From: Candidatus Paceibacter sp.
GTDB taxonomy: Bacteria > Patescibacteriota > Patescibacteriia > Magasanikbacterales > UBA922
Direction: 5' to 3'
Assembly: GCA_020725175.1 (NCBI GenBank)
Contig: DYFM01000003.1
Location: forward strand, 38,470 to 89,041
DNA length: 50,572 bases
In this document: positions 27,388-50,572 of the stretch, piece after piece
How positions within the stretch are numbered: the stretch's first letter is position 1
How the letters are laid out: each line of letters opens with the position of its first letter
Notes under the pieces: generated by a model
The model's input: only the letters and a program-made list of their open reading frames with translations
Database searches by the model: none
Told to the model about the DNA's origin: nothing
Made by a program: the position numbers and the translations under genes

Positions 27388-28113
27388 ATGATTATGAGCA
27401 GCGACCATCCTCATTTGCATAGCTTTACTCGAGAACAGAAGGTAGGGTTTTCTCTTCTTCTGCTTTTTGGTGTTCTTACTGTTGGGTTGGGTTTTTTACA
27501 AATTCGTAATACGATTTACAATCCACTGGCCTTTGACGCGCCGGAACAAAAAAATGCATTGGCCGGGATAGAGTCTGATCCAAATGTACGGCTCCAAGCG
27601 ATTGATACGGACCAAGATGGATTGTCAGACTACGATGAATTAAATTTTTATAGCACCAGTCCGTATCTCCCGGATTCAGATTCAGATGGAAAGACTGATA
27701 AACAAGAAATTGAAGCTGGAACAGATCCAAATTGCGCTGAGGGAAAGCTTTGTGTAAATCCGGACGCAGTAGCAAAACCTTCGTCAGATGGTGTAGGTGC
27801 TTCTCCTTTGGTAAATGCAGCAACAGCACCGTTAGTTGCTCTAGATAAACTTACTTCTACAATTGGGGCAACCACGACAATGAGTATTGAGGGGTTGTTA
27901 AAAAATCCCAGTGCGTTACGAAGTATTCTCATTTCTTCTGGAAACATGTCAGCAACAGATTTGGCTGATGTTGACGATGAGACTTTGATTCGTATGTTTT
28001 CTGAAATTGTTGAAAAAGAGTCGCGTAATTTGGATAAAGAGGATGTCTCTACTGTTCAGTCATTTATTAGTAGTACCACTATAGGTGTGAGTGAATTAGA
28101 TAACGATAATTGA
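27388..28113 (+). CDS. Anchored protein with Asp-rich calcium-binding-type repeats
   Basis: 241 residues. A short cytoplasmic tail and one membrane helix (about 15-36) lead to an Asp-rich repeat (about 70-115: DTDQDGLSDYDE, then DSDSDGKTDKQE) of the thrombospondin type 3 / EF-hand-like class, which usually binds calcium. The remainder is Ala/Ser/Thr-rich and helical. It ends one base before the start of the giant cysteine-rich protein, so the two are co-transcribed and probably act together at the surface. A second ATG at 27394 carries the T at -1 typical of this genome and may be the true start. Confidence 0.75.
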   Translation: MIMSSDHPHLHSFTREQKVGFSLLLLFGVLTVGLGFLQIRNTIYNPLAFDAPEQKNALAGIESDPNVRLQAIDTDQDGLSDYDELNFYSTSPYLPDSDSDGKTDKQEIEAGTDPNCAEGKLCVNPDAVAKPSSDGVGASPLVNAATAPLVALDKLTSTIGATTTMSIEGLLKNPSALRSILISSGNMSATDLADVDDETLIRMFSEIVEKESRNLDKEDVSTVQSFISSTTIGVSELDNDN

Positions 28114-28114
28114 T

Positions 28115-31100
28115 ATGGATGGAGTTAAAAACAGAAAAAAAGATAGATTTAAAAAAATGACATTATGGTTTTTACTGTTACCTGTTGTTTTGTTTTCTCT
28201 TTTCCCCCAAATAACTTATGCGGCACTTCCAAAGTCTACTTTTGATTCGTTTAAGTCCACGATGAAAGCATTAGGAACCGGGGCTACCGGAGCTGGATTT
28301 CCTACGACTGTTATGACAGATTTGCCGGGAATAGCAGATAAAGTGGAATTGAGTTGGGAAAAGGCAATGTTTGCTGGATTACTTGGGGGGTTGGTACAGG
28401 GCGCATCATACTTTATGAGAAAAATGGCTCATGATGCGGCTGTTTGGGTGGCATATGGAGGGAAGGGGCAAGGAGCGCTTATCTACCAAGAGGGATTTGG
28501 TCCGTATATTGAAAAAGTTGCAACAGATGCCGGTGCGACTGCTATTGCTGAGCTCGGCAAACCTTTCGGATTAAACTTGTGTAGTATTCCAGATATGGAG
28601 CTTTTTGCTCAGATACAAATAGGTCTTCAAAGATTTTATGATGACGCTGATGGTGTCTCAGGTCCAACTCCTACGTGTACCTGGAGAGAGATGTCGAGTA
28701 ACTGGAGTCGGGAGAGTTGGTTAGAAAAATATGGTTCTGAGGCAATGGAAAAACGAATGGAACAGTATTTTGATCAAGCTCTTAAAGTTAACGAAACAGA
28801 TTTTGGTTTTACATTACAGGCGATGGCAAAAATAGATAGGATTCGTGCACGAGAAAAAGAGGCCATGATACTTGATCGTGAAGAGGGGGATGGGTTTAAG
28901 GCTGTGGCAAATATGGTTGCGGGGTACATCAAAACACCTGGTTCCATAATTCATGAAGAGGCAAAAGCAGTGACCGGAAAACACCAGGGCGAATTATCAG
29001 TTTCACAAATCGCTTCCTTGTACGGAACGTCAGCTTTGGAAATTATTCCTATGGCGGGTTCTGTTTTTCTAAATACTCTTGCATCACACTTGCTTGATCA
29101 GTTGATGGGTGAGGGACTTGTGCCAGAACCAACTTCTTCAAACAATGCAAGTATTCTGGAGTTTTATGGTGAGGCATTGGTGGATAACAAAAATGCAGCC
29201 GAGAAGGCGTTCAATTTCTTTTTTACAGCCGTACCACAAAAGCAATTGTCCTCATTTGATATGGCGGCACAGTTTTTGGCTTGCCCTTCAAACGCTGGGA
29301 TCAATAACTGTGTTATCGATAGTGGACTGCATGATGCACTGATACGAGCAAGAAATGGTCAACCACTTACGATACGAGAAGCACTAAATGAAGGTTTGCT
29401 ACATGCGGATTGGGAACTTATTCCACCAAGTAGATTGGCGGAAAATACAAATCCACGCAATTGTTTAGTCGGAAAATATTGTTATTCTAATATCCAAAAA
29501 TTGCGTAAAGTGCGTGTGGTGCCGCTTGGGTTTGAAATTGCCGCCCTCAAATCTGATCCCGATCACCCCTGGAAACTTGGTGATGTGGTCAAAGGGTTTG
29601 ATGATTGTGCTGAAGGGAATGTACCAGATAGTAATCATCCGTATTGTCATCTGATTGATCCAAACTGGACATTACGTATTCCGGAAACACGGTGTGAAGC
29701 CAATGTGTACACAGCAGAACTTCTTGACCCGTCAACCCCAAATCGTCGCCAAGAATGTGTGGATGTTTCTACCTGTATTAATGAAGGACCAAATGGGGAA
29801 TGTCTAGGAAAATTTGGGTATTGTCTCAAGGAAAAGAAAGTTTGGGAGCTTCCGGGAGAATCTTGTCCGGCTGAGTTTAATACCTGTAAGACGTATAAGA
29901 CAAATGATAATAAACTCGTATCGTACTTATCTCGAACCGTTGATTTTGGTACTTGTTCCGCGTCTACGGTTGGGTGTGCGGCATATAGCACAGATCAGGT
30001 GAATGGAAACTGGGTAACAAGTGATACCTTTGACGCTCTCAAGAAAAAAGAAGGTATAAATAGTGCTCTGTACTTCAATCAGACCATTAGTCAGTACACC
30101 TGTTCCGAGTCTGATGAAGGATGTACTGCATTTTATGGCGCGTCTCTTACGCTAGGTGGTACATATACTAAAGACAGCTCAAAACTCATTCACCTCAAAA
30201 AAGCACCATCATATTTGTCTTGCTATGACATAGACCCGGCGACACCGGAAATAGATTGGCCAACCACTAAAGCGGATTTGAATGCTATTACCACTGATCC
30301 GGCCTGTGCTCCGTTTGCGCAAGTGTGTTTGCCGGAAGAGGTGGGGTGTCAAGCGTATGTACCAAAAGATGGTTCACAAGAAATTCCGGGTGTGGTAGGA
30401 AATAATGCCTGTGCGGCTGAGTGTGTCGGCTATGACGCGTATAAACAAGAAGCAACGTATTTTGAACAAAGTGTCTATCCACAATATATAATTCCAACTA
30501 ATGGGACGCAGTGTAGTGATCGCTATGCCGGTTGTGATGAATTTACCAACATTGATTCGTTGGCAAGTGGAGGAGAGCAAAAAGAATACTATGTTTCGAT
30601 CAAGCACTGTGAAAAACCGTCCGGTGACAATAGTAAGACGTACTATTCGTGGGAAGGATCAGCGACGGAAGGGTATGTGTTGAAAGTACACAATTTGTTG
30701 CAATTGTCTGCGGAAGATGCAACGAGTATTTCTTCCTTAGATTCTATTGCTAATGAAATCAAAACACAATTTGTTGCCGGCTCACCGGCCTACGCGGAAG
30801 ATAGCAGTACCAAGCTCAATGAAGCGTACGGTTTTTGTAACGAAACCGTGTACAACGCGTTTATAAATAGCCCAAATCCGTATGCCAAACTTGATCCGGA
30901 TTGTCGTGCGCTCTATGATGACGCGGGAAATATTTATTACCGCCTCATGAGCCGTACTGTGACCGTGTCTTCGGCGTGTCGTACGATTCGAAAGACCATT
31001 TCCAATTTCTTTAATGATTCTGACTACACAAATGAACAAGCTTGTGAAGCGAAAGGTGGGTTGTTTGATACAAATAATAATGCCTGTCAACGTTGTACCA

Positions 31101-34100
31101 ATGGTGGACGATATCAAGTAGATCCAATTACCAATCAAGGCGCGTGTGTTTACCAGGCGATTCCGGGAGAAGGTGAGTCTGTTTCTTGCCCGGCGATTGC
31201 CAATGGTTGTCGCGCGTACAGTGGTCCTACCGGCGCGTATGCGAAAAATATTGTTGATGATATTTTTGAGCCGATTGGAGAAGGGGATGATGCCCTCAAT
31301 GCCGCGAAAGCTGGCTGGCAGACCACTGAAGGAACTGCAACAGTTGCCAATGAATCCGTCTTGGTAGGATTGCGATCACTTCAGGTAAATGCGGGTACTC
31401 TTCAAAAAGAAATTGCGCCAAATGAGTTGGTAAATAATGAATGGTATGAATTGACATTTTGGGCGCGTGGATCTGGTCAATCATTAACTATTTCATTTGC
31501 TTCCGGAACAGATGCCCTTGGAAATGCGTTTACTTTTGACCCACTCACCAATACTTCAATTCCAGCTGGTATAACTAATGACTGGAAAAAGTACACCCTC
31601 GGGCCGGTGCAGTTCAAAGGTTCTTCGGGTGTTACTACCACCCTCCGGTTCGTTCGATCCGGTAGTGGAACATATTTTATTGACAATGTCCTGCTTCGAC
31701 AAGTAAAAGATAAACACTGGGTGATCAAGGATTCTTGGAAAACCGCCGAAGGGTATGATGTGCCGGTAGCGTGTGATGCAACGCCGGGGGATGTTTTCCC
31801 GGGCGCTGCTCTTGGTTGTCGAGAGTATACGGAGAAAACAACCAACCGAAGAGTTTACGCCACCGGTTTTGAGTCACTTTGTCGAGAAAAGGCGATTGGT
31901 TGTCAGCCGCTCTTTGATACGTTTAATACGGTGGGAGGGGAGAATGAGGAGAAAGTAGTTTTGTCAAAAGCTGTTTGTGTGCTTGAAAGTGAAGTAACTT
32001 CTCCTTCGGTTTGTATAGTGAATCTTGAGAGTATCAAATATTCTTGTTCTGTAAGTCCTGGTAATAACAGTTGTTATATTGAGGAGCAAGTGATAGTACC
32101 AGACTCATTTACTTTGAATACTACTTTACTTGATAACTCACTTCAGGTTGTCAGTAAAGCTAATAACACAGTAGCATATAAAAATCCAAATTTTATAGCA
32201 GTAACAAATTCATCTATAGTTATTCCTGCCGACACACCATCAACAACCCCAATCTACCTCACCGTTGCTGAACAATTTTTATGTAATGCCGCACAACGTG
32301 GGTGTATGCGGGTCGGAAAAGAACTGCGGACAATTGGAACCAATGCCGCTTCAAGTACCTATGAATATAGTGAAGGATTTGTTCGCAATGACCCATCACT
32401 CTATACCGGTGGCAATGGAACGCTTTGTCGTGCGGATCAAGTAGGCTGTAGTCAATTTTCTTCCAATAATCAGGTTTCGTTCTTCAAGGATCCGGCGCAA
32501 ACTGGAAGTACCTTTTGTGAATATAAATCGTTATCTCCGGAAAATGGTATCGATCGGAGTGGGTGGTATAAAGTGGGAATTGGAACCTGTAGCACTTCTG
32601 GTACAGAATGTCGTGAGGATAGCCATTGTGCTTCCGGTGAAACGTGTCAAAACAAAGGCACCGTGGCTTGTTATGAGGAATATAAACTGCCTGGCGGTGA
32701 AAACGGTATTTTCTCAAATGAGGCAGAGGGGTACAACGGATATGTTGGGGTGTGCCAAGAAGAATACAGTGGTTGTACTGAGTTGGTAGATAAAAATGAT
32801 ACAGCACCGGAACATCCGGAAGGTAAAACATATTATGCGATTTATGATAATCGCCTTACTGCTCGTACCGGCGAGTGTCAAGGTCAGATAAGTCTTGAAG
32901 AAGGATGTGTATTATTTGACCGTACAGAACTTCCAAATAAATTATACAACACAAGTGAATCATATAAAGCAAGTGAATTGAAACCGGGTGATACATATGG
33001 TTTGGTTACCCCAACATCTGATTCAAACAATGATGCGAATATCATTCTAAAGGTCAATCGAGATCGCCAATGTAGTGAGTGGTTGGATTGTCGTGCCAGT
33101 GAACCGTTTGTTACCAATGATGGAAAAGTAATTGACCTTTGTCTAGATTATCGTGCTTGTCGTGCTTCAAATGGGTTACATTGTACGTCGTTTGTAGAAC
33201 CGTTTGAAAAAGCTCATTATGAAAACTTTTTGACTGAACAAATATATATCAATCGTGATGTATCGTGGGCAGGCGATGATTACACCGGATATTCATTGTT
33301 TAATCAATACCAAATCAACAATTTCCAATATGTTGCTATTGGTGATGAGGGCGGAAAAAATAAACAAGTGTACCTCGCGTATCGATTTCACCCAAAAAAT
33401 ATTGAGGACGCTTCCGACGGGGTGACTCCTGAGCAGGTTGCGGCAGCTAGCTGTATTACTGCGGACAATACGTATAAAAATGATGGTGAAACCTGTGGCT
33501 TTGACACGGGTGGACGCTGTTTTGAAGGACAGTGTTACTATCCAATTGACAAAAAAGCTGGCTTTTCTTCGTCACTGAATACTGACAATTTGAATGAGGA
33601 TCTCTTGTCAGCTGAGTGTAAAGCATATCCTGAGCGAGATGCTCCATTTTCACGATCGATAGTGCCGGCCGGAAAAGAGGTACGAAGAGATACGGGGCGA
33701 GAAAAACTTCCAGAAACGAAAGCAGAGGATATTAAGGTATTTGAATTTCCACAACGACTGGCCGGTTTTGAAGGAGCAAATGTTTGTCAGGATGGAAATT
33801 GTTCTTGTGAGTATGTAAAGGCAGAATACATTGATGGTAGCAGGATGTACTGGTCAACGGACGAATTTAGTAGTAAGGATAATTTGAAAAATCCGGGAGT
33901 TTGTTCCGATGGAGAAAGAGTTGGTTTATTGTGTTATGTTGACGGCGATTGTCCTGGTTTTGAGGATCAGGATGTTGAGCCGTTTTGTGAAAAGAAAATT
34001 ACCAAGCAGTCCACGCATATTGGTACGTATGGGTATTGTTTGGAGCGTGATTTGAGTCGTGGTGTGTTCAGTCCACAACTTCAAGATGCGTCTCATGGTT

Positions 34101-37100
34101 GCCTCACTTGGTTGCCACTGGACGTGAACCCAAATGGTCTTGACACGTACAACAATTATGTCGAAGCCGGTTTTGAGCCTTCGCTGGACGTGGCAACAGA
34201 TTGGTCGGGAGGTCTATTGTATTGTTCGCAGTCTACGGCGGTTACTCAGACTGATAATCAGATAAATGGTGTGCAGCTTGGAGAAATAACATATCAAAAG
34301 GATTTTCCAATATGTAGAGTAAGCCCCAATTACGATTATTACTATGTGACTTGCCCATACAATAATGAGCTCACAAATGAAACAGGTGAATCGGAATGTA
34401 TTATCAGTAATGCTGATAAAGCTTCGGAGAAAGGTTGTGAGGTGCCAACACAAAACTATACAAATTGTGTTGAAAACGCACCAACTGGGATCTATGTATG
34501 TGATGGAATAAAAGACATTCCTAACTTTAATTATACATTTAATCCAGACTACTGTGAGGAACTTGACAACGGGCTAAAAGCATGTGGAAAAAAACAACCG
34601 CTCTGTACCTCTATTCCTATTGTACAAAAAGCCTGTATCAATACCTTTGAAAAGGTTGGACAGGTGGATGATAATACAATAAAAACCCTTGGCGAAGATT
34701 TTTCAATTGGAAACGTTGGATTTTCTTGTTCAGCGACAGCAGTTAATTGTTCATTGAAACTAATCCAGACTTGCGATGAAGAGGAAGATACTTGTGAGTC
34801 TACTTGGGTAGAAGATTGTGGTGGAGAAGCGAATTTTGTACGTTTACCAGATCCAAACACTTACGGAAGTCTAGTGTGTAAAAATAGTGCGGATTTTGAT
34901 GCTAAAAAGATAGCGAAACTGCTACAAGAAAAAGAAGATCTTATGGTGTTGAGAGTAGAAGCAGGTACTGATCTACACCCTACTGTACCAAATCAGACTA
35001 ATATCACACAGGCTATTGTTTATCCGGACCAAAGTAGTCCGGGAGGAATGAGAAATATACCTCTGAAATTTGCCCCAATGGACGAGGCCTTTTTGGCAGT
35101 CGATAATTTTCAGGATAGAAATGATGGTGATGGACATGATACCGTTCAGGGTAGAATAGTTCTTCGGCATCCACCAAGAGATGGTTTTAACGGTAGATAC
35201 GAAACACCTATGACTGCGCCAGGAAGAAGAGATGATGATAGTACAGGAGAACAAGGAGATGGACCGGAGATATCGTATGTTGATGGAACGATTATGTCTC
35301 CGGGTCCAAATTTATATCCTGTTGGTGTAGTTAAAGATTTTGTTGATAAAAAATTGTATCGTTCACACTTTGAATCTGTAATGAATTTGTCAGAACTGGA
35401 AAAAGTGTATTTTATGCCGCTACGCTACTTTGATCCTTTGTGTCTTGATTGTGTGGCACCGGAACTACTTTCAAAAGACATTTTCTTTGATTTTTCATCT
35501 ATTGATGCAAATGGTTATACTTTTCAAGAGGTACAAACAAACGTTGTATCTGCTTTACACGAAGGTAAGTATTTTTATGGGTACGACTTTGGTTTTAAAA
35601 ATAATAAGCTGAAACCAATGTTTGCCTACGCCTATAAAATAGACAGAGATGACGAGGGGGCAGAAAAAATTCTTGACACATATTACAAGTCTACTGTTTC
35701 GAAAGGAGATCCGAGTGAAATAGAAAAAAGATACGTTATGGTATTGTTTCGAGAAAATGCCAGTATAATGTCTTCTGACCCAAATGCTACAGCTGCCGGA
35801 GGGGCTCAGTGGCAGAGTCAACTAGCTTGGCTTCCAAATAATCCTGCATTACTTCATAAGGGAGGTGCAACATTATTACGTGATCCTTTTGACACTGATT
35901 CTCACTTTGATCCTAATATGGATGTTATTTGTAAACTGGGTCACAGTGGTACTTGGCTCGCTATAGCGATGGATTTCAATAAAGAAGGTGCGTTCCTAGG
36001 GTACTCATCCAGATTTTGTATGGCGGAATCATTGCATGCTCCTGATAAAAAAGAGCGATACGGCATGAACTTCGCCGTTCTCGCCGAATTAAAGAACATG
36101 TGTACACAAGTACGAAACGTATATGACGAAGATGCGGTAGGGGCGGCAGAAAAGACAAATAAAGCATGGACAAATCGAGTTTGGGTTGATACAGAAAATA
36201 ACTTAGCATTAGCGCGAGCGGTAGGTAAAGAAACCGCAAAAGATGCCCCGCAGAGAGACTGGTATCTGTCTCCATACGGGTCAATCAGTTCAAAATGGAG
36301 TTTAACTGATTTTAACACCGAAGAACTCTTTTCTGCTACAAAAATTAAGGCACTTGCTTTTGAAGCTCCGGAAAAAAAAGGGCAGCCATCTGATGGTGTA
36401 CCATATGCCTGTGCCACTCCGTTTAGCACAAGCTTTTCGGTGTTGTCGGCTGATAAGACCTGTTTGTTTCCCCAGTCGCTCGGAGATCATACCAACGTTC
36501 AGGGTGACGACTATATCCGTCGTCTCTTTGTGAAGTCGTTTGATGTTTACAATATAGCCCGTACAGCTGCCGCGCAGTTTGAAGTGCAAAATATACTTTC
36601 AGATGAAGAAACAGATCATTCAGATGATCTCGGGGCAAGTGCTTTGTTTGTTCCGCAAATTTATTCATTGAATCCGGCTACTTGTTTCGGTTCACGCGAT
36701 GGACGCTGTACTGCCGGGGAAAAAGATAATATTACAGTGAGTGGAAAAAACGGTACCATGACTGATTATGATAATGATGGGAAACCGGATGAAGCTACGT
36801 ATGCCAATGCTACCGAAGCTGATGTACATATTGCTATGAACGTATTTTTTGCTAAGACACAATTTTTCGCCTTTGCTGATGACAACCGCATGCCAATCAA
36901 TCGTATTCGTGTAGATTGGGGTGATGACTTTGTGACCAATGGCTTTATTGAAGGTGGAAAATATAAAAACTACAAGCCATACTGTGAGTATGATGGTGAT
37001 ATCGGACACTGTGGAACAGGAGCTGATGAAATGACCCTTTTGACTTGTAAAACTGATGATGACTGTCCGGTTGATTCAGGGTACTCCTGTATTAAAAAGA

Positions 37101-37612
37101 TTGGGGACGGGTCTGTAGAAAAAGGATATGTAAATGGTAAACCGGAGCTTGATTCTTTCAATGTGCCTCGTTTTGGTGACTCAGACCGTGCTTGTTTTGC
37201 TCGTCCATTTGAGGCTACGTTTACATATTATTGTAGTGAAGTAAAAGCCAATGAGCGATATGCTGAGACTGTAAGTGAATTGGGTGATAACGAAAGTAGT
37301 TGGGATTTGGACGATCCAAAAGTAAAAGCAATCAGTGTTGTAAATCTGTCTGAACGTCAAAAACAGCGTCTGCGACAAATGGGATTTGACCCGGATGTGA
37401 ATGATAGCAAAAAAGTCTGCATCTTCAAACCCCGCGTCCAAGTGTTGGATAATTGGGGGTGGTGTAATGGGAGTTGTGGTGATGCGCAGTCTTCTGGTGG
37501 TGAGTCTTGTTATGCAGATGAAGTCACAAAGAAAGATGATGAGTGTGATCCAAAAAATGGTTTTCCGCCACATACTCTTTATAAAGGTAGTATAATTATT
37601 ATACCTGAGTAA
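28115..37612 (+). CDS. Giant secreted cysteine-rich protein (3165 residues)
   Basis: An N-terminal signal (about 17-36, ending ITYAA) is followed by a helical, nearly cysteine-free region (about 40-430, with hydrophobic FAGLLGGLVQGASYFM). A very long cysteine-rich region follows; I count about 116 cysteines in total. Nine times between residues 613 and 1553 it shows C-x5-G-C-x2-(F/Y/L/V), for example CSASTVGC, CSDRYAGC and CRADQVGC. A carbohydrate-binding-type jelly roll lies at about 1052-1202 (GWQTTEGTATV...YFIDNVLLRQV). EGF-like cysteine clusters occur near 1495-1530 (CREDSHCASGETC) and 2970-2990 (CKTDDDCPVDSGYSC). A cysteine-poor part (about 2450-2800) precedes the C-terminal cysteine cluster. 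Position next to the type IV secretion genes suggests a TraN-like contact or adhesion role (inference). I recognise no named family. Confidence 0.75.
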   Translation: MDGVKNRKKDRFKKMTLWFLLLPVVLFSLFPQITYAALPKSTFDSFKSTMKALGTGATGAGFPTTVMTDLPGIADKVELSWEKAMFAGLLGGLVQGASYFMRKMAHDAAVWVAYGGKGQGALIYQEGFGPYIEKVATDAGATAIAELGKPFGLNLCSIPDMELFAQIQIGLQRFYDDADGVSGPTPTCTWREMSSNWSRESWLEKYGSEAMEKRMEQYFDQALKVNETDFGFTLQAMAKIDRIRAREKEAMILDREEGDGFKAVANMVAGYIKTPGSIIHEEAKAVTGKHQGELSVSQIASLYGTSALEIIPMAGSVFLNTLASHLLDQLMGEGLVPEPTSSNNASILEFYGEALVDNKNAAEKAFNFFFTAVPQKQLSSFDMAAQFLACPSNAGINNCVIDSGLHDALIRARNGQPLTIREALNEGLLHADWELIPPSRLAENTNPRNCLVGKYCYSNIQKLRKVRVVPLGFEIAALKSDPDHPWKLGDVVKGFDDCAEGNVPDSNHPYCHLIDPNWTLRIPETRCEANVYTAELLDPSTPNRRQECVDVSTCINEGPNGECLGKFGYCLKEKKVWELPGESCPAEFNTCKTYKTNDNKLVSYLSRTVDFGTCSASTVGCAAYSTDQVNGNWVTSDTFDALKKKEGINSALYFNQTISQYTCSESDEGCTAFYGASLTLGGTYTKDSSKLIHLKKAPSYLSCYDIDPATPEIDWPTTKADLNAITTDPACAPFAQVCLPEEVGCQAYVPKDGSQEIPGVVGNNACAAECVGYDAYKQEATYFEQSVYPQYIIPTNGTQCSDRYAGCDEFTNIDSLASGGEQKEYYVSIKHCEKPSGDNSKTYYSWEGSATEGYVLKVHNLLQLSAEDATSISSLDSIANEIKTQFVAGSPAYAEDSSTKLNEAYGFCNETVYNAFINSPNPYAKLDPDCRALYDDAGNIYYRLMSRTVTVSSACRTIRKTISNFFNDSDYTNEQACEAKGGLFDTNNNACQRCTNGGRYQVDPITNQGACVYQAIPGEGESVSCPAIANGCRAYSGPTGAYAKNIVDDIFEPIGEGDDALNAAKAGWQTTEGTATVANESVLVGLRSLQVNAGTLQKEIAPNELVNNEWYELTFWARGSGQSLTISFASGTDALGNAFTFDPLTNTSIPAGITNDWKKYTLGPVQFKGSSGVTTTLRFVRSGSGTYFIDNVLLRQVKDKHWVIKDSWKTAEGYDVPVACDATPGDVFPGAALGCREYTEKTTNRRVYATGFESLCREKAIGCQPLFDTFNTVGGENEEKVVLSKAVCVLESEVTSPSVCIVNLESIKYSCSVSPGNNSCYIEEQVIVPDSFTLNTTLLDNSLQVVSKANNTVAYKNPNFIAVTNSSIVIPADTPSTTPIYLTVAEQFLCNAAQRGCMRVGKELRTIGTNAASSTYEYSEGFVRNDPSLYTGGNGTLCRADQVGCSQFSSNNQVSFFKDPAQTGSTFCEYKSLSPENGIDRSGWYKVGIGTCSTSGTECREDSHCASGETCQNKGTVACYEEYKLPGGENGIFSNEAEGYNGYVGVCQEEYSGCTELVDKNDTAPEHPEGKTYYAIYDNRLTARTGECQGQISLEEGCVLFDRTELPNKLYNTSESYKASELKPGDTYGLVTPTSDSNNDANIILKVNRDRQCSEWLDCRASEPFVTNDGKVIDLCLDYRACRASNGLHCTSFVEPFEKAHYENFLTEQIYINRDVSWAGDDYTGYSLFNQYQINNFQYVAIGDEGGKNKQVYLAYRFHPKNIEDASDGVTPEQVAAASCITADNTYKNDGETCGFDTGGRCFEGQCYYPIDKKAGFSSSLNTDNLNEDLLSAECKAYPERDAPFSRSIVPAGKEVRRDTGREKLPETKAEDIKVFEFPQRLAGFEGANVCQDGNCSCEYVKAEYIDGSRMYWSTDEFSSKDNLKNPGVCSDGERVGLLCYVDGDCPGFEDQDVEPFCEKKITKQSTHIGTYGYCLERDLSRGVFSPQLQDASHGCLTWLPLDVNPNGLDTYNNYVEAGFEPSLDVATDWSGGLLYCSQSTAVTQTDNQINGVQLGEITYQKDFPICRVSPNYDYYYVTCPYNNELTNETGESECIISNADKASEKGCEVPTQNYTNCVENAPTGIYVCDGIKDIPNFNYTFNPDYCEELDNGLKACGKKQPLCTSIPIVQKACINTFEKVGQVDDNTIKTLGEDFSIGNVGFSCSATAVNCSLKLIQTCDEEEDTCESTWVEDCGGEANFVRLPDPNTYGSLVCKNSADFDAKKIAKLLQEKEDLMVLRVEAGTDLHPTVPNQTNITQAIVYPDQSSPGGMRNIPLKFAPMDEAFLAVDNFQDRNDGDGHDTVQGRIVLRHPPRDGFNGRYETPMTAPGRRDDDSTGEQGDGPEISYVDGTIMSPGPNLYPVGVVKDFVDKKLYRSHFESVMNLSELEKVYFMPLRYFDPLCLDCVAPELLSKDIFFDFSSIDANGYTFQEVQTNVVSALHEGKYFYGYDFGFKNNKLKPMFAYAYKIDRDDEGAEKILDTYYKSTVSKGDPSEIEKRYVMVLFRENASIMSSDPNATAAGGAQWQSQLAWLPNNPALLHKGGATLLRDPFDTDSHFDPNMDVICKLGHSGTWLAIAMDFNKEGAFLGYSSRFCMAESLHAPDKKERYGMNFAVLAELKNMCTQVRNVYDEDAVGAAEKTNKAWTNRVWVDTENNLALARAVGKETAKDAPQRDWYLSPYGSISSKWSLTDFNTEELFSATKIKALAFEAPEKKGQPSDGVPYACATPFSTSFSVLSADKTCLFPQSLGDHTNVQGDDYIRRLFVKSFDVYNIARTAAAQFEVQNILSDEETDHSDDLGASALFVPQIYSLNPATCFGSRDGRCTAGEKDNITVSGKNGTMTDYDNDGKPDEATYANATEADVHIAMNVFFAKTQFFAFADDNRMPINRIRVDWGDDFVTNGFIEGGKYKNYKPYCEYDGDIGHCGTGADEMTLLTCKTDDDCPVDSGYSCIKKIGDGSVEKGYVNGKPELDSFNVPRFGDSDRACFARPFEATFTYYCSEVKANERYAETVSELGDNESSWDLDDPKVKAISVVNLSERQKQRLRQMGFDPDVNDSKKVCIFKPRVQVLDNWGWCNGSCGDAQSSGGESCYADEVTKKDDECDPKNGFPPHTLYKGSIIIIPE

Positions 37613-37873
37613 TGTTTATTCTTCATGCTTTGGATATGCCTAAGGTGGACTGGGTTTTGTTATCCGTAATTTGTTGTGAGCTTTGTTAAAGTGATATCCT
37701 GTTCATTTGTCTTAAAAAATATTTATATTGTCTGGTTAATTTTACCTATTTTCTTCTTGAGGAGCCTTGCTGTTAGTTTTCAAATAGATGTGCAGGATAC
37801 ACATCATGAAAATTCATTTACTGTTGTTATGGCCTCTTAATGTAGAATGGAGGAGAAAGACAGAAGGAACTGG
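37613..37873. other. Intergenic region between the giant gene and the insertion sequence
   Basis: AT-rich, with no convincing gene, terminator or promoter. A 27-codon frame from ATG 37806 runs into the insertion sequence end and may be spurious. Confidence 0.5.
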
Positions 37874-37901
37874 TGGGACTGGTGCATAAAAATGTGGGAT
37901 T

Positions 37902-38839
37902 TTAGTGTAATAATGATAGGTGGATGGCATTCAATAAAAGCTCGGCCTTAGCCGAGCTTTTTAGTCCGTGAGTAGTCTTTAAACGATCGTTAAATCGACT
38001 AATATATCCTTCAACAGCATTGCTTGTCGTAGGGAGATGGAGATACTTGTTTTTTGGGTTCATGAAAGTGAAGACCTTTGACAGTGTTCTGACAAAAGAC
38101 TTAATAACATTCTTTTCACCTTCTCCGTGTGGTTGCTACATTTTCAAAACAACTCGTTGAAAATGCTCGTAGCGAAGTTGTTTTTGGACTTCTGTTCTTG
38201 AATTTAAAACTAGCTTTGCATACGCATATAGGTACCATTTTCTTCTGTCTTTTTTCATCCGTTTTGGCAGCATTCGAAATCCTCTTTGAAGGTCTCGTAA
38301 AAGATGTACGTGACAACGTTGTTGCTTCGATATTTTATAGTACCTTAGAGCTGAATATATACTAGTACCTCCATCACTAACCACTACAAGCGGTATATAC
38401 TCGGCTTGCTGTAACTCTTCAAAAAGTTGCCGATAACCCATACGTATTTTCGTTTCCTTTTCGAAGGTATCTATGTACTAAGCCAAGGTCGGTGTCTACT
38501 GCTAAATACTCACAGTATTTTACTCCTAAAATGAAAATCACCTTTGCATCAATGACCAGTACAAAACTCGCTTCAGAGAAAATTTTTTGTAATCTCAAGA
38601 AGTGATGGCATCTCCTCCATTTCCTTTTTTAGATGAAATAATACTGTTGTATGTGAAATATTCATTTTTTCACCGATACGACGAAGGGTAGAACGATCTT
38701 TAATATATGCTTCAGAAAATTGTGTTCTTGGACGCCCGGATTGTATGGCACATGTCGAACCACAATCAATACACTTTCGCCTCTTTTTTCCATGCTTATG
38801 AAGTCTTTTTCCACCACATTTTGGACACACCTTTTTCAT
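37902..38839 (-). pseudogene. Broken DDE transposase with zinc ribbon (IS256/IS1249-like)
   Basis: Read on the minus strand from ATG 38839: a zinc ribbon (CPKCGGKRLHKHGKKRRKCIDCGSTC in pieces), a helix-turn-helix (IGEKMNISHTTVLFHL), a frameshift near 38575, a segment with the first catalytic Asp (VLVIDAKVIFILG), a second frameshift near 38465, then VVVSDGGTSIYSAL with RCHVHLLRDLQRG. An in-frame TAG follows after VVLKM near 38133-38135, and beyond it the C-terminal part with the catalytic Glu (TTSNAVEGYISRFNDRLKTTHG) ends at 37902. The first shift is not of the -1 slippery type, and together with the stop this marks a dead element. The family is inferred from the D..D..E layout and the C..H motif. 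Confidence 0.85.
37938..37965. terminator. GC-rich terminator-like hairpin inside the transposase end
   Basis: AAAAGCTCGGC with GCCGAGCTTTTT, an 11-bp stem with a T run on both strands, overlapping the last transposase codons. It could stop transcription entering or leaving the element. Confidence 0.7.
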
Positions 38840-38940
38840 AGCAAAAAACGTTAGATTAAAACATTAAAAAAAACAGTAAAATTACTGCTTTTTTTATTAT
38901 ATCATCCCACACTTTAATGCATCAGTCTCAGCTGGTAAAT

Positions 38941-38978
38941 AAAAACACCGTTATACATAACGGTGTTTTAAATTTTTT
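38941..38978. terminator. Bidirectional intrinsic terminator
   Basis: AAAACACCGTTAT and its complement ATAACGGTGTTTT around a short loop, T run to the right and A run to the left. It lies just beyond the stop of the minus-strand gene at 38990 and insulates it from the insertion sequence. Confidence 0.85.
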
Positions 38979-38989
38979 GTGCTAGTTCA

Positions 38990-39454: not shown

Positions 39455-39585
39455 AGAACGTATTTTATATAATGCAGGAGGATGTAGCACCTCTTGTATC
39501 TAAATTAATAAAAAGTAGTTTGTATAAGCAATCATTGAAAAATATTGGTGAGTTTTTTGTGTGGGTTATCCACATGCACCACTTC

Positions 39586-39614
39586 TTGCTTAATATAACA
39601 AAAAGATGTATACT
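39586..39614 (+). promoter_or_regulatory. Orphan promoter-like site in the 39455-40005 spacer
   Basis: TTGCTT at 39586-39591, 17 bases, TATACT at 39609-39614. No gene follows on this strand for over a kilobase, so it may be accidental or drive a short RNA. The 551-base spacer otherwise holds only repeats and one terminator. Confidence 0.3.
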
Positions 39615-39748
39615 ATTGCCCACGACACTTTTTTACTCTGTTGAAGGAAAAACAGACAGTTTTTTGCTTTTGAGCACTCACAAGGAAATGTAGCATATTT
39701 TAGTGTTTATGTCAATGAAGTTGTACACAGGGCGTTTTTTCACTACAA

Positions 39749-39796
39749 CACTACACCACACCACCACTACACCACACCACCACTGCACCACACCAT
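39749..39796. repeat. 16-base minisatellite, three tandem copies
   Basis: Three adjacent units of CACTACACCACACCAC (third copy with two changes). A complementary GTGGTGTGGTGGTG-type stretch lies at 39969-40003, so the two can pair across the intervening 170 bases. Confidence 0.8.
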
Positions 39797-40996: not shown

Positions 40997-43930
40997 GTGA
41001 ACATCCTCTCGCGACTGTCGTCATTCACAAAACCATTCAAAAAACACCCGTGGTTCTTTAGTGGTGTGTTTGTATTTTTGGTGGTAACCTTTACTTTGGT
41101 TGGGTTTGAGTACGCTCATGCGATTTTGGAAGACATCAAACAAGGTTTCTTATGGGCTGTTGTAAATATTTTTCTAGCAATCGCGCGGTTTTTTATTGGA
41201 ATGACAATTTTTGCTCTTCGCTTCTTTATTGAAATTGCATCGTATAATGGATACATCGATACTCCAACAGTTGTTATTGGATGGTTATTAGTGCGAGATG
41301 TTGCCAATATGTTTTTTGTGGTGATACTACTGGTGATTGCGTTTGGTACCATTCTTGGTATTGAACAGTACGAGTGGAAAAAAACCATGGGACATTTTAT
41401 TTTGGCAGCGATTTTTATCAATTTTAGTAAAACAATTTGTGGTTTGATAATTGATGTTGCGCATGTGTTTAGTTTGACATTTTTAAATGCAGTTTCCGCT
41501 GCGGCAGGCGGAAATCTGATAACCATGTTTAATTTTGATAGTTTACTCAGCTTTGCTAGAGGTCCTGGTAAGGAAGGGGTGGGACTTGATTTGATAATTG
41601 CCGGGATGGCAGCGGTAATTTTCTCTTTTTTGGCACTGTGGACAATCGGGGCGTATATGATTATCATGCTTGCTCGTGTATTGGTACTCTGGATATTGAT
41701 CATCCTTTCTCCACTGGCATTTATTTTACAAGCAGTTCCGGGTAAGCCACAAAGTTATGCTAGTCAATGGTGGGAAAAATTTACCAATCAGGTACTAGTG
41801 GCTCCAGTGATGGTTTTTTTCTTTTGGTTGGCGTTTGCTACACTTGGGGCAGGTAAGGTTGCTAGTGATCAGCTTGGTCTTCAGCTATCTTCCGCATCTG
41901 CCGAGGCAAATTCTGTGTTACAACAAGAAGGTGAAGCACCAAACCCTTCTATTCTAGAAGGAACCACTTGGGAAAACATGGCCAACTTTTTTATTGCTGC
42001 GGGAATGCTTTGGGTGGGGTTGATGGTGGTAGGACAAATGGGCGTCGTAGCAGGAGGGCTCACGCAAAGTGTCATGAGTGCGGCGAAGAAAGTGGCGATG
42101 ATTGCAACCGGGTATGCTGCCGGTAGGTGGTTGGTTGGGAAGATGGGTGATGGGGCGATAGGTCTTTCTAAAGGGGTCGCGTATAGACTGCCGCTTATAG
42201 GTGGTAGATCTTGGAAAAGAAGAGGGTATGCAGTTGCACAAGCGTGGGAAGAAAAATTTCAGAAACGTAGAGATGATAAAGCACAAAAGTGGGATGAAAA
42301 GTACCGTGATATTCAGGAACTAAAAATGAAAGCAAAAATGGGAGACGAAGAGTCAAAAAGAAAATTGGAGCAAGTTTCTTTTAAGGATAAAATTACTGCT
42401 AGAACAGGAAGATTTTTTGCATCTGCACTCCAGACAAACGATAGGTCAGAAAAGGAATTAGAAGATTATAAAGAGTCGTTAGAGAGAACAAAAAAATGGC
42501 ACAAAGATAGTGTGTCAACAAGTAAATTACCAGGTGGAATATTAAAGCAACGAGTAACAGGTGAAATGAAAATACAAGAAAAAATCTCAGAAAGAAAAGG
42601 ATCCCAAAAGGTGTCAGCGATAATGGAGTTGTTATTTAGGACAAATCCAGATTTGGCAGATAAAGTTAATAAGGCTACCATGAAAGACGAGTTGGCATCA
42701 GCTGAACTTGAAAAGACAGAGGGTGAAGGGAAGAGGCGATATGCTGCGTCTGATGATGGGCAAAGAATTTTCCAAGCCATTGCTAAGGCAATGAATATTA
42801 AAGAAAAACTAGCAATAGAAAAAAAATTGTTTGAGGCTATTGATAGAGCTGAAGCTTATAAGAGTTCTGGTGATTCATTTAGAGCTGAACAGGTTTTAAG
42901 AAGTACATATCAGGCTATTGAGGAGGAAAATGCGGCAAAGTTTAAATCAATGGGCAGAAGTGAACGAGGAGATGCAACAAAAAAAATAATAAGTAAACTT
43001 CAGGAGCAAGGTATAAGTGAGCAAGATAAAGAGCAGATGTCTCGAGACATGTTTAGTATTTTAAATTATGCTGCATCACAAGGTGCTGAGGAATACAAGT
43101 CTGTCTTTCATACTGCTTTAAAAAAACTTTATGGTGACGATGATGTGGACTTATCAGCTGAGAATCAAGGAAGGTTAGTGTTAGAGTTATTGGCTGGGAA
43201 AAGAATTGTTGGAGCAAGTGATCAGGAAATGCGGGACAACTTTGAAAGAACTCAACAAGAAGTAAAATCACGATTTGGTAGAGATGGTATTTTATGGGAT
43301 CCTATGATGTCGACCTTTTTAAATAAGTCTTTGTTTACCTCATTTACAAGCGGAGGTGCGGCAGAGATGGCTTCAGTAACTGATTTTGAAGATCAAAATG
43401 GTGTTAAAAGATATCAATTATATAATCCATTTAATCGTACACCTGAAGAACTGGGAAGAGTTAGGCGTGGTGCTTATAACTCAGAAATGGTAAGTAACTA
43501 TGTTAATGTTGGTTCTATTAATGATCTTGATTCCTTTTTAAAAACAAAGATTAGTCAGGGTAATGTTTTGATTTCTGATTTTACTGAAGAAGGTGAAGAG
43601 GCTATGAAGTCACTGTTAACTTCTTTTGGGGATACTAGAGCAGTTTCTACTGGTTTTAAAAATAATTTTTCCGGAAGGTTTGGTCGGGAAAGATTCGAAA
43701 GCCATGAGGCAAGAATCAGGTTTATGAAATTTCTAAAGGAGAAAGTATATGATGATTATAAAGCTAGAGGAAAAGAGGATGTTGCTGTTCAGCTTATGAA
43801 AACACAGTTTGCTGAATTTATTTCTGATATGAATGAAGATTATATAAATAATCAAATCAATCTTGCTGACGACGCTGTCGAAGAGCTGCAAAGATTAGAA
43901 GATTTATTACATCAAAACGGTAGAAGATAA
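40997..43930 (+). CDS. VirB6/TrbL-like type IV secretion membrane protein with long cytoplasmic tail
   Basis: 977 residues. The first 390 or so hold about seven hydrophobic segments (VFVFLVVTFTLVGFEYAHA near 25-43, then clusters around 50-75, 85-110, 125-155, 190-235, 260-285 and 330-365), as in VirB6/TrbL proteins that form the inner-membrane channel. From about 400 on it is a long charged, helical, coiled-coil-like cytoplasmic tail (WEEKFQKRRDDKAQKWDEKY), longer than in classical VirB6. It starts with GTG at 40997 and ends one base before the next ATG. Other secretion genes follow on the same strand. Confidence 0.75.
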   Translation: MNILSRLSSFTKPFKKHPWFFSGVFVFLVVTFTLVGFEYAHAILEDIKQGFLWAVVNIFLAIARFFIGMTIFALRFFIEIASYNGYIDTPTVVIGWLLVRDVANMFFVVILLVIAFGTILGIEQYEWKKTMGHFILAAIFINFSKTICGLIIDVAHVFSLTFLNAVSAAAGGNLITMFNFDSLLSFARGPGKEGVGLDLIIAGMAAVIFSFLALWTIGAYMIIMLARVLVLWILIILSPLAFILQAVPGKPQSYASQWWEKFTNQVLVAPVMVFFFWLAFATLGAGKVASDQLGLQLSSASAEANSVLQQEGEAPNPSILEGTTWENMANFFIAAGMLWVGLMVVGQMGVVAGGLTQSVMSAAKKVAMIATGYAAGRWLVGKMGDGAIGLSKGVAYRLPLIGGRSWKRRGYAVAQAWEEKFQKRRDDKAQKWDEKYRDIQELKMKAKMGDEESKRKLEQVSFKDKITARTGRFFASALQTNDRSEKELEDYKESLERTKKWHKDSVSTSKLPGGILKQRVTGEMKIQEKISERKGSQKVSAIMELLFRTNPDLADKVNKATMKDELASAELEKTEGEGKRRYAASDDGQRIFQAIAKAMNIKEKLAIEKKLFEAIDRAEAYKSSGDSFRAEQVLRSTYQAIEEENAAKFKSMGRSERGDATKKIISKLQEQGISEQDKEQMSRDMFSILNYAASQGAEEYKSVFHTALKKLYGDDDVDLSAENQGRLVLELLAGKRIVGASDQEMRDNFERTQQEVKSRFGRDGILWDPMMSTFLNKSLFTSFTSGGAAEMASVTDFEDQNGVKRYQLYNPFNRTPEELGRVRRGAYNSEMVSNYVNVGSINDLDSFLKTKISQGNVLISDFTEEGEEAMKSLLTSFGDTRAVSTGFKNNFSGRFGRERFESHEARIRFMKFLKEKVYDDYKARGKEDVAVQLMKTQFAEFISDMNEDYINNQINLADDAVEELQRLEDLLHQNGRR

Positions 43931-47147: not shown

Positions 47148-47582
47148 ATGCAGCAATTCGTCGTTCCACAATTTATTGAAGTAGAAGATAAAATTTTTGG
47201 ACCGATTACTGTGCGGCAGTTTTTAATTTTATTGACCGGTAGCTTAATTATTTTTATCGCGTATAAGTTGGCTGACTTTGCGTTGTTTGTGGTGATTTTG
47301 TCTCTTATCGGAGGGTTGTCATTGATTTTTGCGTTTGTAAAAGTAAACGGGCAAACATTTCATTATTTTATATTAAATTTAGTACAAACATTGCAAAAAC
47401 CTGGTTTGAGAATTTGGTCCAAGCAGTACGATAAAGATGAATTGAATTTTTTACGCAAGCAACATACTGAAAAAGCGGAACAGGTGGAAAAAATACAAAA
47501 AAAAGCTCATCCGGCGCGCATCCGTGATCTTTCGTTGGTCGTAAATACCGGCGGATACTATCGTCCGGATGATGACATATAA
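47148..47582 (+). CDS. prgI: PrgI-family type IV secretion membrane protein
   Basis: PrgI proteins are small membrane components of Gram-positive conjugation machines, usually encoded just before the VirB4 ATPase, as here. The 144-residue product starts with the family signature QQFVVPQFIEVEDKIFGPIT, has two membrane helices (about 25-43 and 46-64), and a basic cytoplasmic tail containing LNLVQTLQKPGLRIW. The length fits the family. ATG 47148 has T at -1. The C-terminal tail after residue 95 is charged and probably contacts the ATPase. Confidence 0.88.
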   Translation: MQQFVVPQFIEVEDKIFGPITVRQFLILLTGSLIIFIAYKLADFALFVVILSLIGGLSLIFAFVKVNGQTFHYFILNLVQTLQKPGLRIWSKQYDKDELNFLRKQHTEKAEQVEKIQKKAHPARIRDLSLVVNTGGYYRPDDDI

Positions 47583-47849: not shown

Positions 47850-48530
47850 ATGAAGAGTAAAAAGGCGGTCAATCAAAAAGCAAAAGCAAATTCGACCCAG
47901 CGGCATCTTCCGATTGCTGAAGTAAAAGATAATGTAGTCATCTTAAAAGATGGGACGATTCGAAAAGTACTCATGGTGTCGAGTATCAATTTTGCGTTGA
48001 AGTCCGAGGATGAACAGAATGCATTGATTTCTTCTTATGTCAGTTTTTTAAATTCTTTGGAATTTCCGCTTCAGATTGTGGTGCAATCACGAAAATTACA
48101 AATTGAGCCGTACTTGGCTCAACTGAGGGAGATTGAAGGTACGCTTACCAATGAATTATTGCGAGTACAGGTGGCAGATTATCGTTCGTTTGTTACGGAG
48201 TTGGTTGATATTGGACAAATCATGACAAAGCGATTTTATGTGGTAGTTCCGTACGACCCGGCTTCGAGTAAAAAGAAAAGTTTTTGGGCGCGCTTTAAGG
48301 AAGTGTTGAAACCGGCGTCATTGGTGCGAGTAAAAGAAGAGCGGTTTCGCAAACTCGCAGAAGAAATTGATTCTCGCGTCCGACTTGTTTCCAGTGGTTT
48401 AGCCAGTATGGGGCTTCAAGCGGTTGAAATGGATACGCAGGCGTTGATAGAACTCTACTATTCCTCATATAATCCTGATATTGCGTTTAGTGAACCGATG
48501 AGAGATGTAGAGGAGATACGGATTGATTGA
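47850..48530 (+). CDS. TraC/VirB4 N-terminal-domain-like protein
   Basis: 226 residues resembling the N-terminal domain of TraC-type conjugation ATPases (DNVVILKDGTIRKVLMVSSINFALKSEDEQNALISSY, then FYVVVPYDP). There is no Walker motif; the ATPase is the next gene. In many Firmicute systems both parts form one protein, so here the function is split in two genes or the domain is duplicated. It lies between two hairpin-repeat clusters. No membrane segment is seen. The assignment rests on sequence pattern and on its position between prgI and virB4. Confidence 0.7.
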   Translation: MKSKKAVNQKAKANSTQRHLPIAEVKDNVVILKDGTIRKVLMVSSINFALKSEDEQNALISSYVSFLNSLEFPLQIVVQSRKLQIEPYLAQLREIEGTLTNELLRVQVADYRSFVTELVDIGQIMTKRFYVVVPYDPASSKKKSFWARFKEVLKPASLVRVKEERFRKLAEEIDSRVRLVSSGLASMGLQAVEMDTQALIELYYSSYNPDIAFSEPMRDVEEIRID

Positions 48531-48532: not shown

Positions 48533-48752
48533 AAATAATGAAATAAAAAAATAACGAAATAACGAAATAACTCCGCTCGAGGCGGACCCGCCTTGGGCGG
48601 GGAAATAACGAATTAACGAAATAAAGAAATAATGAAATAAAGAAATAACGAAATAACTCCGCTCGAGGCGGACCCGCCTTGGGCGGGGAAATAATGGTAC
48701 ACTGTTCATGGTCAAAAAAATGTTTTGCTATTTCTTTATTTCGCTATTTCCC
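48533..48752. repeat. GAAATAAC repeats with a duplicated 46-base GC-hairpin unit
   Basis: Two identical 46-base copies (48563-48608 and 48649-48694) each contain CCCGCCTTGGGCGGG, a 6-bp hairpin, embedded in runs of CGAAATAA octamers. A reverse-complement run (TTTCTTTATTTCGCTATTTC) lies at 48731-48751. Confidence 0.9.
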
Positions 48753-48765
48753 TTTTTCGGATAGT

Positions 48766-50572
48766 ATGCCATTCAAACCAATTGCTACACAATCAAAAGG
48801 AACGAAACAGACGCTTATTCCTAAAAAATCTGTTGAAGAACAGGTGGTTCAGGATGAATTGATTTCACTTGAGGAGGAGCGGGTATATCGAGAGGGTACG
48901 GTCGCGATACGAGACCTTATTGCCCCGTCGGCGTTTCGGGTTGATTCGAGCTTTTTGCAACTCGGTGATGTTTTTTTACGCACCATTTTTGTGATCAGTT
49001 ATCCACGGTACATTAGTGTCGGTTGGCACGCACCAATTATGAATCTGAATATTACCATGGATATTTCAATGTTTTTTTATCCGGTGAATTCGGCGATTAT
49101 TTTGAAGCAGCTCAAGAAAAAAGTGGGGGCACTGGAAGCACAGATTAGTGCGGACGCAGAGAAGGGAGCGCCTCGTGATCCGATTCGTGAAACTGCGTTG
49201 CGTGATATTGAACAATTGCGAGATGATTTGACCCAAGGAATTGAACACTTTTTTCAGTTTGCTTTTTATGTCACTATTTATGCCAAAGACACCAAAGAGC
49301 TTGATAAAATGTCGGAAGATATTGAAAACGTGTTTGGCTCAAAACTGATTTATAGTAAACATGTATTGTTTCAGGCTGAGCAAGGATTTACTTCTACGTT
49401 GCCGCTTGGCATTGATGAGTTGGTTGTATCATTCAACATGAATTCGTCACCGATCGCGTCGTCGTTTCCATTTATGTCTTCGGAATTGACGAGTGATAAT
49501 GGAATTTTGTATGGGATCAATCGACACAATAATAGTTTGATTTTGTTTGATCGTTTTTCTCTACAGAATGCCAATATGTCAGTATTTGCAACTTCTGGAG
49601 CCGGAAAATCGTATGCCGTAAAACTAGAAGTGCTGCGTTCGCTTATGATGGGGACAGATGTGATTATTATTGATCCGGAAATGGAATATGTACATCTTTG
49701 TGAAGCGGTAGGTGGAACCTATATCAATATTTCACTCGCGTCGGAGAGTAAAGTCAATCCGTTTGACTTGCCACGACCGGTGGGGCAGCAAATTTCTACT
49801 GAAGATATTATTCGGAGTGCGGTTATCACGCTCAAAGGTCTCATTCGCATCATGTTTGGGTCGCTAAGTGCTCAAGAGGATTCCATCATGGATCGGGCGC
49901 TTCTTGAAACCTTTGCCAAGAAAGATATTACCACCTCAAGTGATCTATCTATGGTAGAGCCACCAATCATGCAAGACTTACTTGACGTATTGGAAGGTAT
50001 GGAGGGGGCGGAAACCCTGGTTCTCAAACTAAGGAAATACACCGAAGGAACGTTCTCAGGACTGTTCAACGCGCCAACCAATGTCAACATGAATAATCAG
50101 TTGGTGGTATTTAGCGTACGAGATTTGGAAGATGAACTTCGACCGATGGCGATTTATACCTTGGTCAATTATATATGGAATATTGTTCGAAGTGAGCGGA
50201 AGAAGCGTATTTTAGTCATTGATGAAGCGTGGTGGCTCATGCAACATGAAGATTCGGCTCGATTTATTTACGCGCTGGTTAAACGGTGTCGAAAGTATTA
50301 TCTTGGAGTCACGACGATTACCCAGGATGTAAATGATTTCTTGCGCTCACAATATGGTCAGGCTATTGTTACCAACTCGGCGTCACAGCTGCTGTTACGA
50401 CAATCTCCGGCAGCCATTGATATGATTCAAAAAACATTTATGTTGACGGAGGGAGAAAAATATTTGCTTCTCGAAGGTGCGGTTGGAGAAGGAATTTTCT
50501 TTGCTGGATTAAAGCATGCTGCTATCAGTATTGTCGCGTCTCCTACCGAAGTTCAGTTGGCTACGTCAAATC
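48766..50572 (+). CDS. virB4: VirB4/TraC-type conjugation ATPase (3' partial)
   Basis: VirB4 ATPases power assembly and substrate transfer in type IV secretion. The 602 residues present start with a short linker and a PrgI/VirB4-type N-terminal domain (IRDLIAPSAFRVDSSFLQLGDVFLRT), a coiled segment near 120-155, then the RecA-like core. Walker A is TSGAGKS (276-282), followed by IIIDPEMEY. Walker B is ILVIDEAWWLM (D486, E487), with TITQDVNDFL and the NSASQLLLRQSP region after it. The frame is open to the window end, where about the last few dozen residues are missing. ATG 48766 has T at -1. It completes the string VirB6-like, PrgI, TraC-N-like, VirB4. Confidence 0.93.
   Translation, partial: MPFKPIATQSKGTKQTLIPKKSVEEQVVQDELISLEEERVYREGTVAIRDLIAPSAFRVDSSFLQLGDVFLRTIFVISYPRYISVGWHAPIMNLNITMDISMFFYPVNSAIILKQLKKKVGALEAQISADAEKGAPRDPIRETALRDIEQLRDDLTQGIEHFFQFAFYVTIYAKDTKELDKMSEDIENVFGSKLIYSKHVLFQAEQGFTSTLPLGIDELVVSFNMNSSPIASSFPFMSSELTSDNGILYGINRHNNSLILFDRFSLQNANMSVFATSGAGKSYAVKLEVLRSLMMGTDVIIIDPEMEYVHLCEAVGGTYINISLASESKVNPFDLPRPVGQQISTEDIIRSAVITLKGLIRIMFGSLSAQEDSIMDRALLETFAKKDITTSSDLSMVEPPIMQDLLDVLEGMEGAETLVLKLRKYTEGTFSGLFNAPTNVNMNNQLVVFSVRDLEDELRPMAIYTLVNYIWNIVRSERKKRILVIDEAWWLMQHEDSARFIYALVKRCRKYYLGVTTITQDVNDFLRSQYGQAIVTNSASQLLLRQSPAAIDMIQKTFMLTEGEKYLLLEGAVGEGIFFAGLKHAAISIVASPTEVQLATSN

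Follow-up and report, generated by a model that had tools for sequence, protein, structure and literature searches.

A giant cysteine-rich secreted protein encoded at the type IV secretion locus of ABY1 Patescibacteria is a candidate for host contact

Introduction

The Patescibacteria account for a very large share of bacterial diversity, and the means by which they hold and exploit their hosts are largely unknown. To our knowledge, the type IV secretion system (T4SS) of these bacteria has no agreed contact protein, and the system is essential in the sole species that has been tested genetically.

According to the main text of the 2025 survey by Quinonero-Coronel et al., the T4SS of the Patescibacteria is of the MPF_FATA type and is described as monoderm-type; its virB4 loci lie near dnaA and ksgA, and no PrgB-type adhesin was detected in the phylum (PMC12102498). 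A related T4SS is essential for the epibiotic growth of a cultured species of Saccharibacteria (PMC10633639). Since that system is essential and the main text of the survey reports no PrgB-type adhesin, there appears to be a vacancy for a contact protein.

Several described proteins are relevant to such a role. Gram-positive conjugation systems often use surface adhesins, and the PrgB-type proteins of Gram-positive plasmids are wall-anchored polymer adhesins (PMC12857230). In F-type conjugation the mating pair is stabilised by TraN, a mostly beta protein with 22 conserved cysteines, predicted disulfides and a variable tip (PMC9246713). In ABY1 itself, Patescibacterium danicum encodes FhaB-type giant proteins, which are very large and exported and for which adhesion has been proposed (PMC11809585). 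The locus described here was compared with each of these systems.

Results and Discussion

The giant protein and its conservation in ABY1

The window analysed is a 50,572-nucleotide stretch of DNA (G000:C33:38470-89041) from a 1.24-Mb, 98%-complete genome of Candidatus Magasanikbacteria, class ABY1, Patescibacteria (the name was taken from relatives and the class from the literature). The giant protein that it encodes has the following layout.

28115..37612, + strand: giant protein gene, 3165 residues with 116 cysteines; a single intact open reading frame without an internal stop
28115..28222, + strand: Sec signal peptide, residues 1-36; hydrophobic segment from residue 12, predicted cleavage after TYA and before AL
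28226..29434, + strand: N-domain, residues 38-440; predicted helical, homologous to the short protein X of other classes
29432..31234, + strand: Cys-rich region I, residues 440-1040; C-x5-GC at 614, 663, 738, 800 and 1025, near-invariant cysteines
31256..31762, + strand: CBM-like jelly roll, residues ~1048-1216; AlphaFold2 pLDDT >90
31763..34249, + strand: Cys-rich region II, residues 1217-2045; C-x5-GC at 1256, 1390, 1438 and 1547, conserved cysteines
34250..35914, + strand: variable region, residues ~2046-2600; length, sequence and cysteines all unconserved in the conservation profile
35915..37609, + strand: conserved C-terminal region, residues ~2601-3165, from the conservation profile; no known fold matched

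A first-pass annotation had described a secreted protein of about 3165 residues with about 116 cysteines, and the intact reading frame, the cysteine count and the signal peptide agreed with that description. The AxA-type cleavage site was common to relatives (consensus xPxPAxAQ), and a scan of the whole protein revealed no second transmembrane segment besides the N-terminal hydrophobic one. The nine copies of C-x5-G-C-x2-hydrophobic that had been reported were all recovered as exact matches, at the start residues given above, whereas 2000 residue shuffles yielded 0.12 copies on average and never more than 2. The EGF-like clusters of the same annotation were not confirmed, as there was no EGF Pfam match at E≤1 and the sole cysteine repeat, TIGR04201 at residues 1497-1513 (E = 8.6e-4), reached 19.4 bits, below its cut-off of 25. 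No description of the giant protein was found in the open-access literature.

Homologues were detected in 56 of 59 relatives from the same family and order, most of them 2.5-3.4 kaa long where the reading frame was complete. In an alignment of 36 copies, residues 100-2040 were strongly conserved, residues 2046-2600 were variable and the C-terminus was again conserved. Across 74 ABY1 sequences, 64 of the 70 alignable query cysteines up to residue 2045 were conserved at ≥90%, a share far above that of all other residues (tryptophan 38%, proline 22%, glycine 20%). The giant protein is a genuine conserved feature, and an artefact was excluded. In a phylum-wide sample of 286 genomes, the cysteine-rich region (profile A1) was found in 24, all of that class; as judged from its sequence profile, the giant form is restricted to ABY1. 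An open frame of 26,141 residues reported in another genome (G397:C8:1-100000) proved to be an artefact, since about 72 kb of the contig was masked as N.

Predicted structure and oxidative folding

AlphaFold2 modelling was done with 69 sequences. Residues 380-1229 were mostly modelled with confidence, with pLDDT values that were mostly 70-97 in Cys-rich region I and a weak stretch at about 565-620; the N-domain model was helical and of low confidence. All five of the C-x5-GC copies that were modelled had one predicted local structure (strand, cysteine, three-residue helix, GlyCys, strand), in agreement with the earlier suggestion that these segments form a repeated fold.

The carbohydrate-binding-type jelly roll that had been proposed was recognisable in the confidently modelled fold, which gave Foldseek matches to CBM16, CBM22 and CBM61 (target TM 0.55-0.62) and to phage 'CenC-like' carbohydrate-binding proteins. 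There was no Pfam CBM match at E≤1 over residues ~1048-1216, and it is from the fold alone that the jelly roll appears to be of the glycan-binding type. It was the only part of the protein with known folds among the best 50 Foldseek matches, which the jelly roll fills. Toxin entries among the fold matches were rejected as relatives, because they shared only the common CBM-type jelly roll or had TM values of about 0.1-0.2. The model of the C-terminal region was partly confident and had no Foldseek fold match (best E = 1.3). For the cysteine-rich region and the N-domain, no convincing sequence relative with a solved structure was found.

The number of cysteines had been taken to imply an oxidising extracytoplasmic folding system, and the genes for one are present. 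In the source genome a VKOR gene (C3:18291-18656) adjoins a DsbA-type gene (C3:18941-19441); DsbA-type genes were found in 59 of 59 relatives and VKOR in 41. These genes are consistent with disulfide formation outside the membrane.

The type IV secretion locus

The giant gene lies within a set of genes on the same strand, as follows.

27388..28113, + strand: TSP3-repeat partner gene, 241 residues; Pfam TSP3_bac, E = 1.5e-6, over cut-off
40997..43930, + strand: virB6-like polytopic membrane protein, 977 residues; about nine hydrophobic segments in the N-terminal 350 residues
45675..47018, + strand: conserved T4SS-locus gene, 447 residues; recurs at the T4SS loci of relatives
47148..47582, + strand: prgI (VirB3-type); Pfam PrgI, E = 1.7e-7, over cut-off
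47850..48530, + strand: trsD (VirB4 N-terminal-like); NCBIfam TrsD, E = 1.3e-6, below its own cut-off
48679..50571, running off the window end, + strand: virB4 ATPase; Pfam P-loop_TraG, E = 1e-28

VirB6, PrgI and VirB4 genes had been placed beside the giant gene by the first-pass annotation, and this assignment held: PrgI exceeded its cut-off, VirB4 carried the P-loop domain, and the VirB6 call rested on a BLAST-linked homologue (L168) that passed PF04610 TrbL/VirB6. The order frequently observed in relatives was ksgA, TSP3, giant, virB6, the gene of the 45675 type, prgI, trsD and virB4. It contains the same chromosomal cluster of virB4, trsD, prgI and virB6 near ksgA that is described for the MPF_FATA-type T4SS of the Patescibacteria in the main text of the survey, which makes no mention of protein X, the giant cysteine-rich protein or the TSP3 partner (PMC12102498). 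Two conserved genes, those of the TSP3 partner and X, are thereby added to a machine that family-profile surveys had left partly blank.

In the TSP3 partner, a single transmembrane segment near residue 17 precedes two repeats of the DxDxDG calcium-binding type; the conserved pattern is DTDxDGLxDYDEL...DTDSDG...GTDPLCPxGxxC. The stop codon of its gene ends 1 bp ahead of the ATG of the giant gene, and because one base separates them the two genes look translationally linked. The TSP3 gene was upstream of the giant gene in 74 of 80 named loci, and four of the six exceptions were at contig edges.

The first-pass annotation had named homologues that never co-occur with T4SS genes as grounds for refutation, and this was clearly not the outcome: of the 61 ABY1 genomes that had both genes on the same contig (among the matches listed), 57 had virB4 in the same orientation at 10-29 kb downstream of the giant gene, and 24 of the 25 short relatives in other classes described below were syntenic with virB6. 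In a further 42 pairs the giant and virB4 genes were split between contigs, often short ones, and these pairs are outside the count of 61. The stronger expectation that homologues always neighbour virB4 was not upheld, since some ABY1 families keep the giant gene elsewhere in the genome and the giant form is confined to ABY1. The distance from giant to virB6 was 10-24 kb in three genomes (G010, G023, G027). The giant gene and virB6/virB4 were on separate sizeable contigs in five (G009, G011, G014, G030, G031), and giant and virB4 were distant on the same contig in G374 and G442 and on other contigs in G122, G134 and G246. The link between the giant protein and the T4SS is well supported.

Such exceptions bear on the explanation that the giant is a general cell-surface protein, S-layer-like or of the envelope, which merely shares an origin-proximal ksgA neighbourhood with the T4SS genes. 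The ksgA gene was a near-constant neighbour of the giant locus, as expected on that explanation given that virB4 loci lie near dnaA/ksgA in the main text of the survey (PMC12102498), and the pair of TSP3 and giant genes can be far from virB4 or, at one locus outside ABY1 (L215), without nearby T4SS genes. In addition, eight of the ten ABY1 genomes without a virB4 match kept the giant gene, and one of those was a single-contig genome. Against this, the place upstream of virB6 on the same strand was retained in very divergent classes, in the proportions given above, whereas other reading frames there, such as those in the gap between giant and virB6, varied between genomes. We regard a general surface protein as quite unlikely. 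The presence or absence of the two genes in 191 ABY1 drafts (167 with both, 8 with the giant only, 14 with virB4 only and 2 with neither; Fisher p = 0.20) was uninformative, because both are near-universal (giant in 175, virB4 in 181).

A large, secreted protein that adjoins a secretion system could also be an effector delivered by the T4SS rather than a part of the machine. However, the giant has its own Sec signal peptide and is a near-universal core gene product of the class, no catalytic or effector family was above cut-off in Pfam or NCBIfam, and its fold matches were only to a widespread CBM-type domain. Delivery as an effector is highly improbable.

Short homologues in other classes

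Profile A3 (residues 30-1229) also matched proteins of other classes, and in one group the match covered the N-terminal domain only. The first six of these N-domain-only proteins, of 280-880 residues, were located in the T4SS cluster. A profile of the N-domain and these six (A5) added 13 non-ABY1 proteins, and six more came from a second round (A6), which brought the total to 25. These searches relied on profiles and made no use of gene position, and no protein was a member of the profile that first found it. When a profile of the short proteins only was compared with the giant N-domain, hhalign gave a probability of 99.3% (E = 2.9e-19). The shared features were cysteines 156/188, a GxGF-like segment and a TPG/TPA motif. 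Matches in other classes to the jelly roll only (profile positions about 960-1109) were rejected as orthologues of the giant.

The short protein, here called X, is secreted and unnamed, and outside ABY1 is 280-1112 residues long. The short members have signal-peptide-like starts, mostly no other transmembrane segment and 0-20 cysteines, and the C-x5-GC motif was absent from all 19 that were checked. Because its N-domain is homologous to X, the giant is an ABY1-specific enlargement of a T4SS-locus protein, in which the conserved N-domain is followed by about 2700 additional residues with many near-invariant cysteines. X was detected in 47 of the 286 sampled genomes; either the profiles therefore miss divergent copies or many lineages are without X.

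At 24 of the 25 loci, the X gene was located in the T4SS cluster (ksgA-X-virB6-prgI-trsD-virB4), upstream of a virB6-type gene and in the same orientation, and prgI, trsD and virB4 then followed in most of those whose contig extended that far. X was usually preceded by a TSP3-repeat gene or, at L167 and L168, by a reading frame that takes its place and has no Pfam match. At L203, L207 and L165 there was a gap or another reading frame between X and virB6. The 25th gene (L215:9129-11065, minus strand) had a TSP3 neighbour and no T4SS gene in the 19 kb examined; because the pair occurs there without T4SS genes, the most tightly linked unit may be TSP3 and X and not the cluster as a whole.

Two of these loci had further features. 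At L165:9954-12329 (plus strand), a 791-residue secreted protein with a C-terminal transmembrane segment and no Pfam family is encoded between the short X and virB6. The X at L207:7751-11089 (minus strand) has 1112 residues and 20 cysteines. Close to its end are two repeats of the acidic double-disulfide type (NCBIfam NF033662, E = 5e-14), an independent, smaller cysteine-rich extension of X.

The short proteins bring VirB5 and TrbJ to mind: X is exported, as indicated by the signal peptides, is helical in the low-confidence model and is encoded upstream of virB6, much as trbJ is located ahead of trbK-trbL(virB6) in the IncP plasmid R751. On these grounds, X and the giant could be structural parts of the extracellular channel or pilus base, either a sheath through the wall and the S-layer or a minor subunit of the VirB5/TrbJ type, with host binding located elsewhere, in VirB2 pilins or type IV pili. 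One short X (L211) matched NCBIfam TrbJ (E = 5e-4), and the X profile matched the TrbJ profile at E = 9e-4, better than ten column shuffles and the reversal. However, the profile match spanned only about 24 columns, at a probability of 23.6% (hhalign), and was lost with profiles that contained the giants; the score of L211 was 19.2 bits against a curated cut-off of 225, and the match was found in one of 22 X members. Furthermore, TrbJ has no cysteine-rich extension, and a role in the channel leaves 2700 extra cysteine-rich residues with a CBM-like domain unexplained. Since the match is short, the resemblance to VirB5/TrbJ, including a short N-terminal motif common to a few X proteins, is suggestive and is treated as a lead only. 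A purely structural role is unlikely.

Proposed function

As a cysteine-rich exported T4SS protein, the giant may work like TraN (PMC9246713), with which it had been compared. Kinship was not supported: among the Pfam and NCBIfam results for the giant at E≤1 there was no TraN-family match, and membership was rejected on this basis and on the 116 cysteines, compared to about 22 conserved in TraN. TraN is an outer-membrane protein of diderms, whereas the giant has no membrane anchor besides its signal peptide, has about five times as many cysteines and has a helical N-domain common to short proteins of other classes. With PrgB the giant shares a proposed role, that of a long surface protein uniting partner cells (PMC12857230), but it has no C-terminal transmembrane segment, no LPxTG in its sequence and no adhesin-domain match in Pfam. 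No large-exoprotein family was matched either, and while the FhaB-type proteins of P. danicum are reported to have no full-length homologues in other Patescibacteria (PMC11809585), the giant is conserved class-wide. The first-pass interpretation was thus partly supported: the protein is secreted, cysteine-rich and tied to the T4SS, but the TraN kinship was not borne out, and the N-domain homology and the TSP3 gene had been missed.

The fixed place in the cluster across classes, the several-fold enlargement in ABY1, the near-invariant cysteines and the CBM-type fold make the giant and X a concrete candidate for host contact, and we infer an adhesive or host-contact role for the giant. With a probability of about 60%, it is a subunit of the T4SS that is exported by Sec, docks at the machine through its N-domain and contacts the host through a disulfide-stiffened extension of the glycan-binding type. 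In such a mechanism the protein would be oxidised outside the membrane by the DsbA/VKOR-type enzymes, and, as it has no anchor of its own, its N-domain would be attached to the outer face of the T4SS through the TSP3 protein, VirB6 or both. Braced by disulfides, the cysteine modules would make up a stiff rod; surface glycans would be bound by the CBM-like jelly roll, and the variable region (2046-2600) may adapt to host differences. The giant would then keep the tiny epibiont on its host, or a donor on its recipient, during T4SS action. We tentatively extend this proposal to other classes: X might be an unrecognised T4SS subunit of the Patescibacteria, invisible to family models, of which the ABY1 form would be a host-docking tower of about 3000 residues, braced by disulfides, that replaces wall-anchored adhesins.

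Other features of the window

The gap between the giant gene and virB6 (37613-40996) carries, on the minus strand, Mutator-type transposase fragments (38136-38441), a gene for a small secreted protein (38990-39490) and an MNT/HEPN toxin-antitoxin-type pair (40006-40712). In relatives (L031, L034, L035, L036, L038, L043, L044, L063), the same gap often holds small minus-strand genes that are unrelated and encode secreted proteins or lipoproteins. The gap is apparently a hot spot for insertions within the T4SS cluster. Between trbJ and trbL, IncP plasmids carry trbK, the gene for an exclusion lipoprotein, and the gap genes of the relatives might have a similar role.

Most of the intergenic region between trsD and virB4 is occupied by an 86-bp sequence in 1.9 copies (48533-48694; 94% match) with AAATAACG-type 8-bp repeats. 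Similar arrays of the 8-bp GAAATAAC type were observed at 8873, 10651 and 14618.

Two large secreted proteins, encoded at 4566-7256 and 16627-20841, have C-terminal regions that looked alike when the translations were compared by eye, with the motif KRPF...FTYFT/FSYFTSW...FMPWGP...WI.D. This common region may possibly be a cell-surface attachment module.
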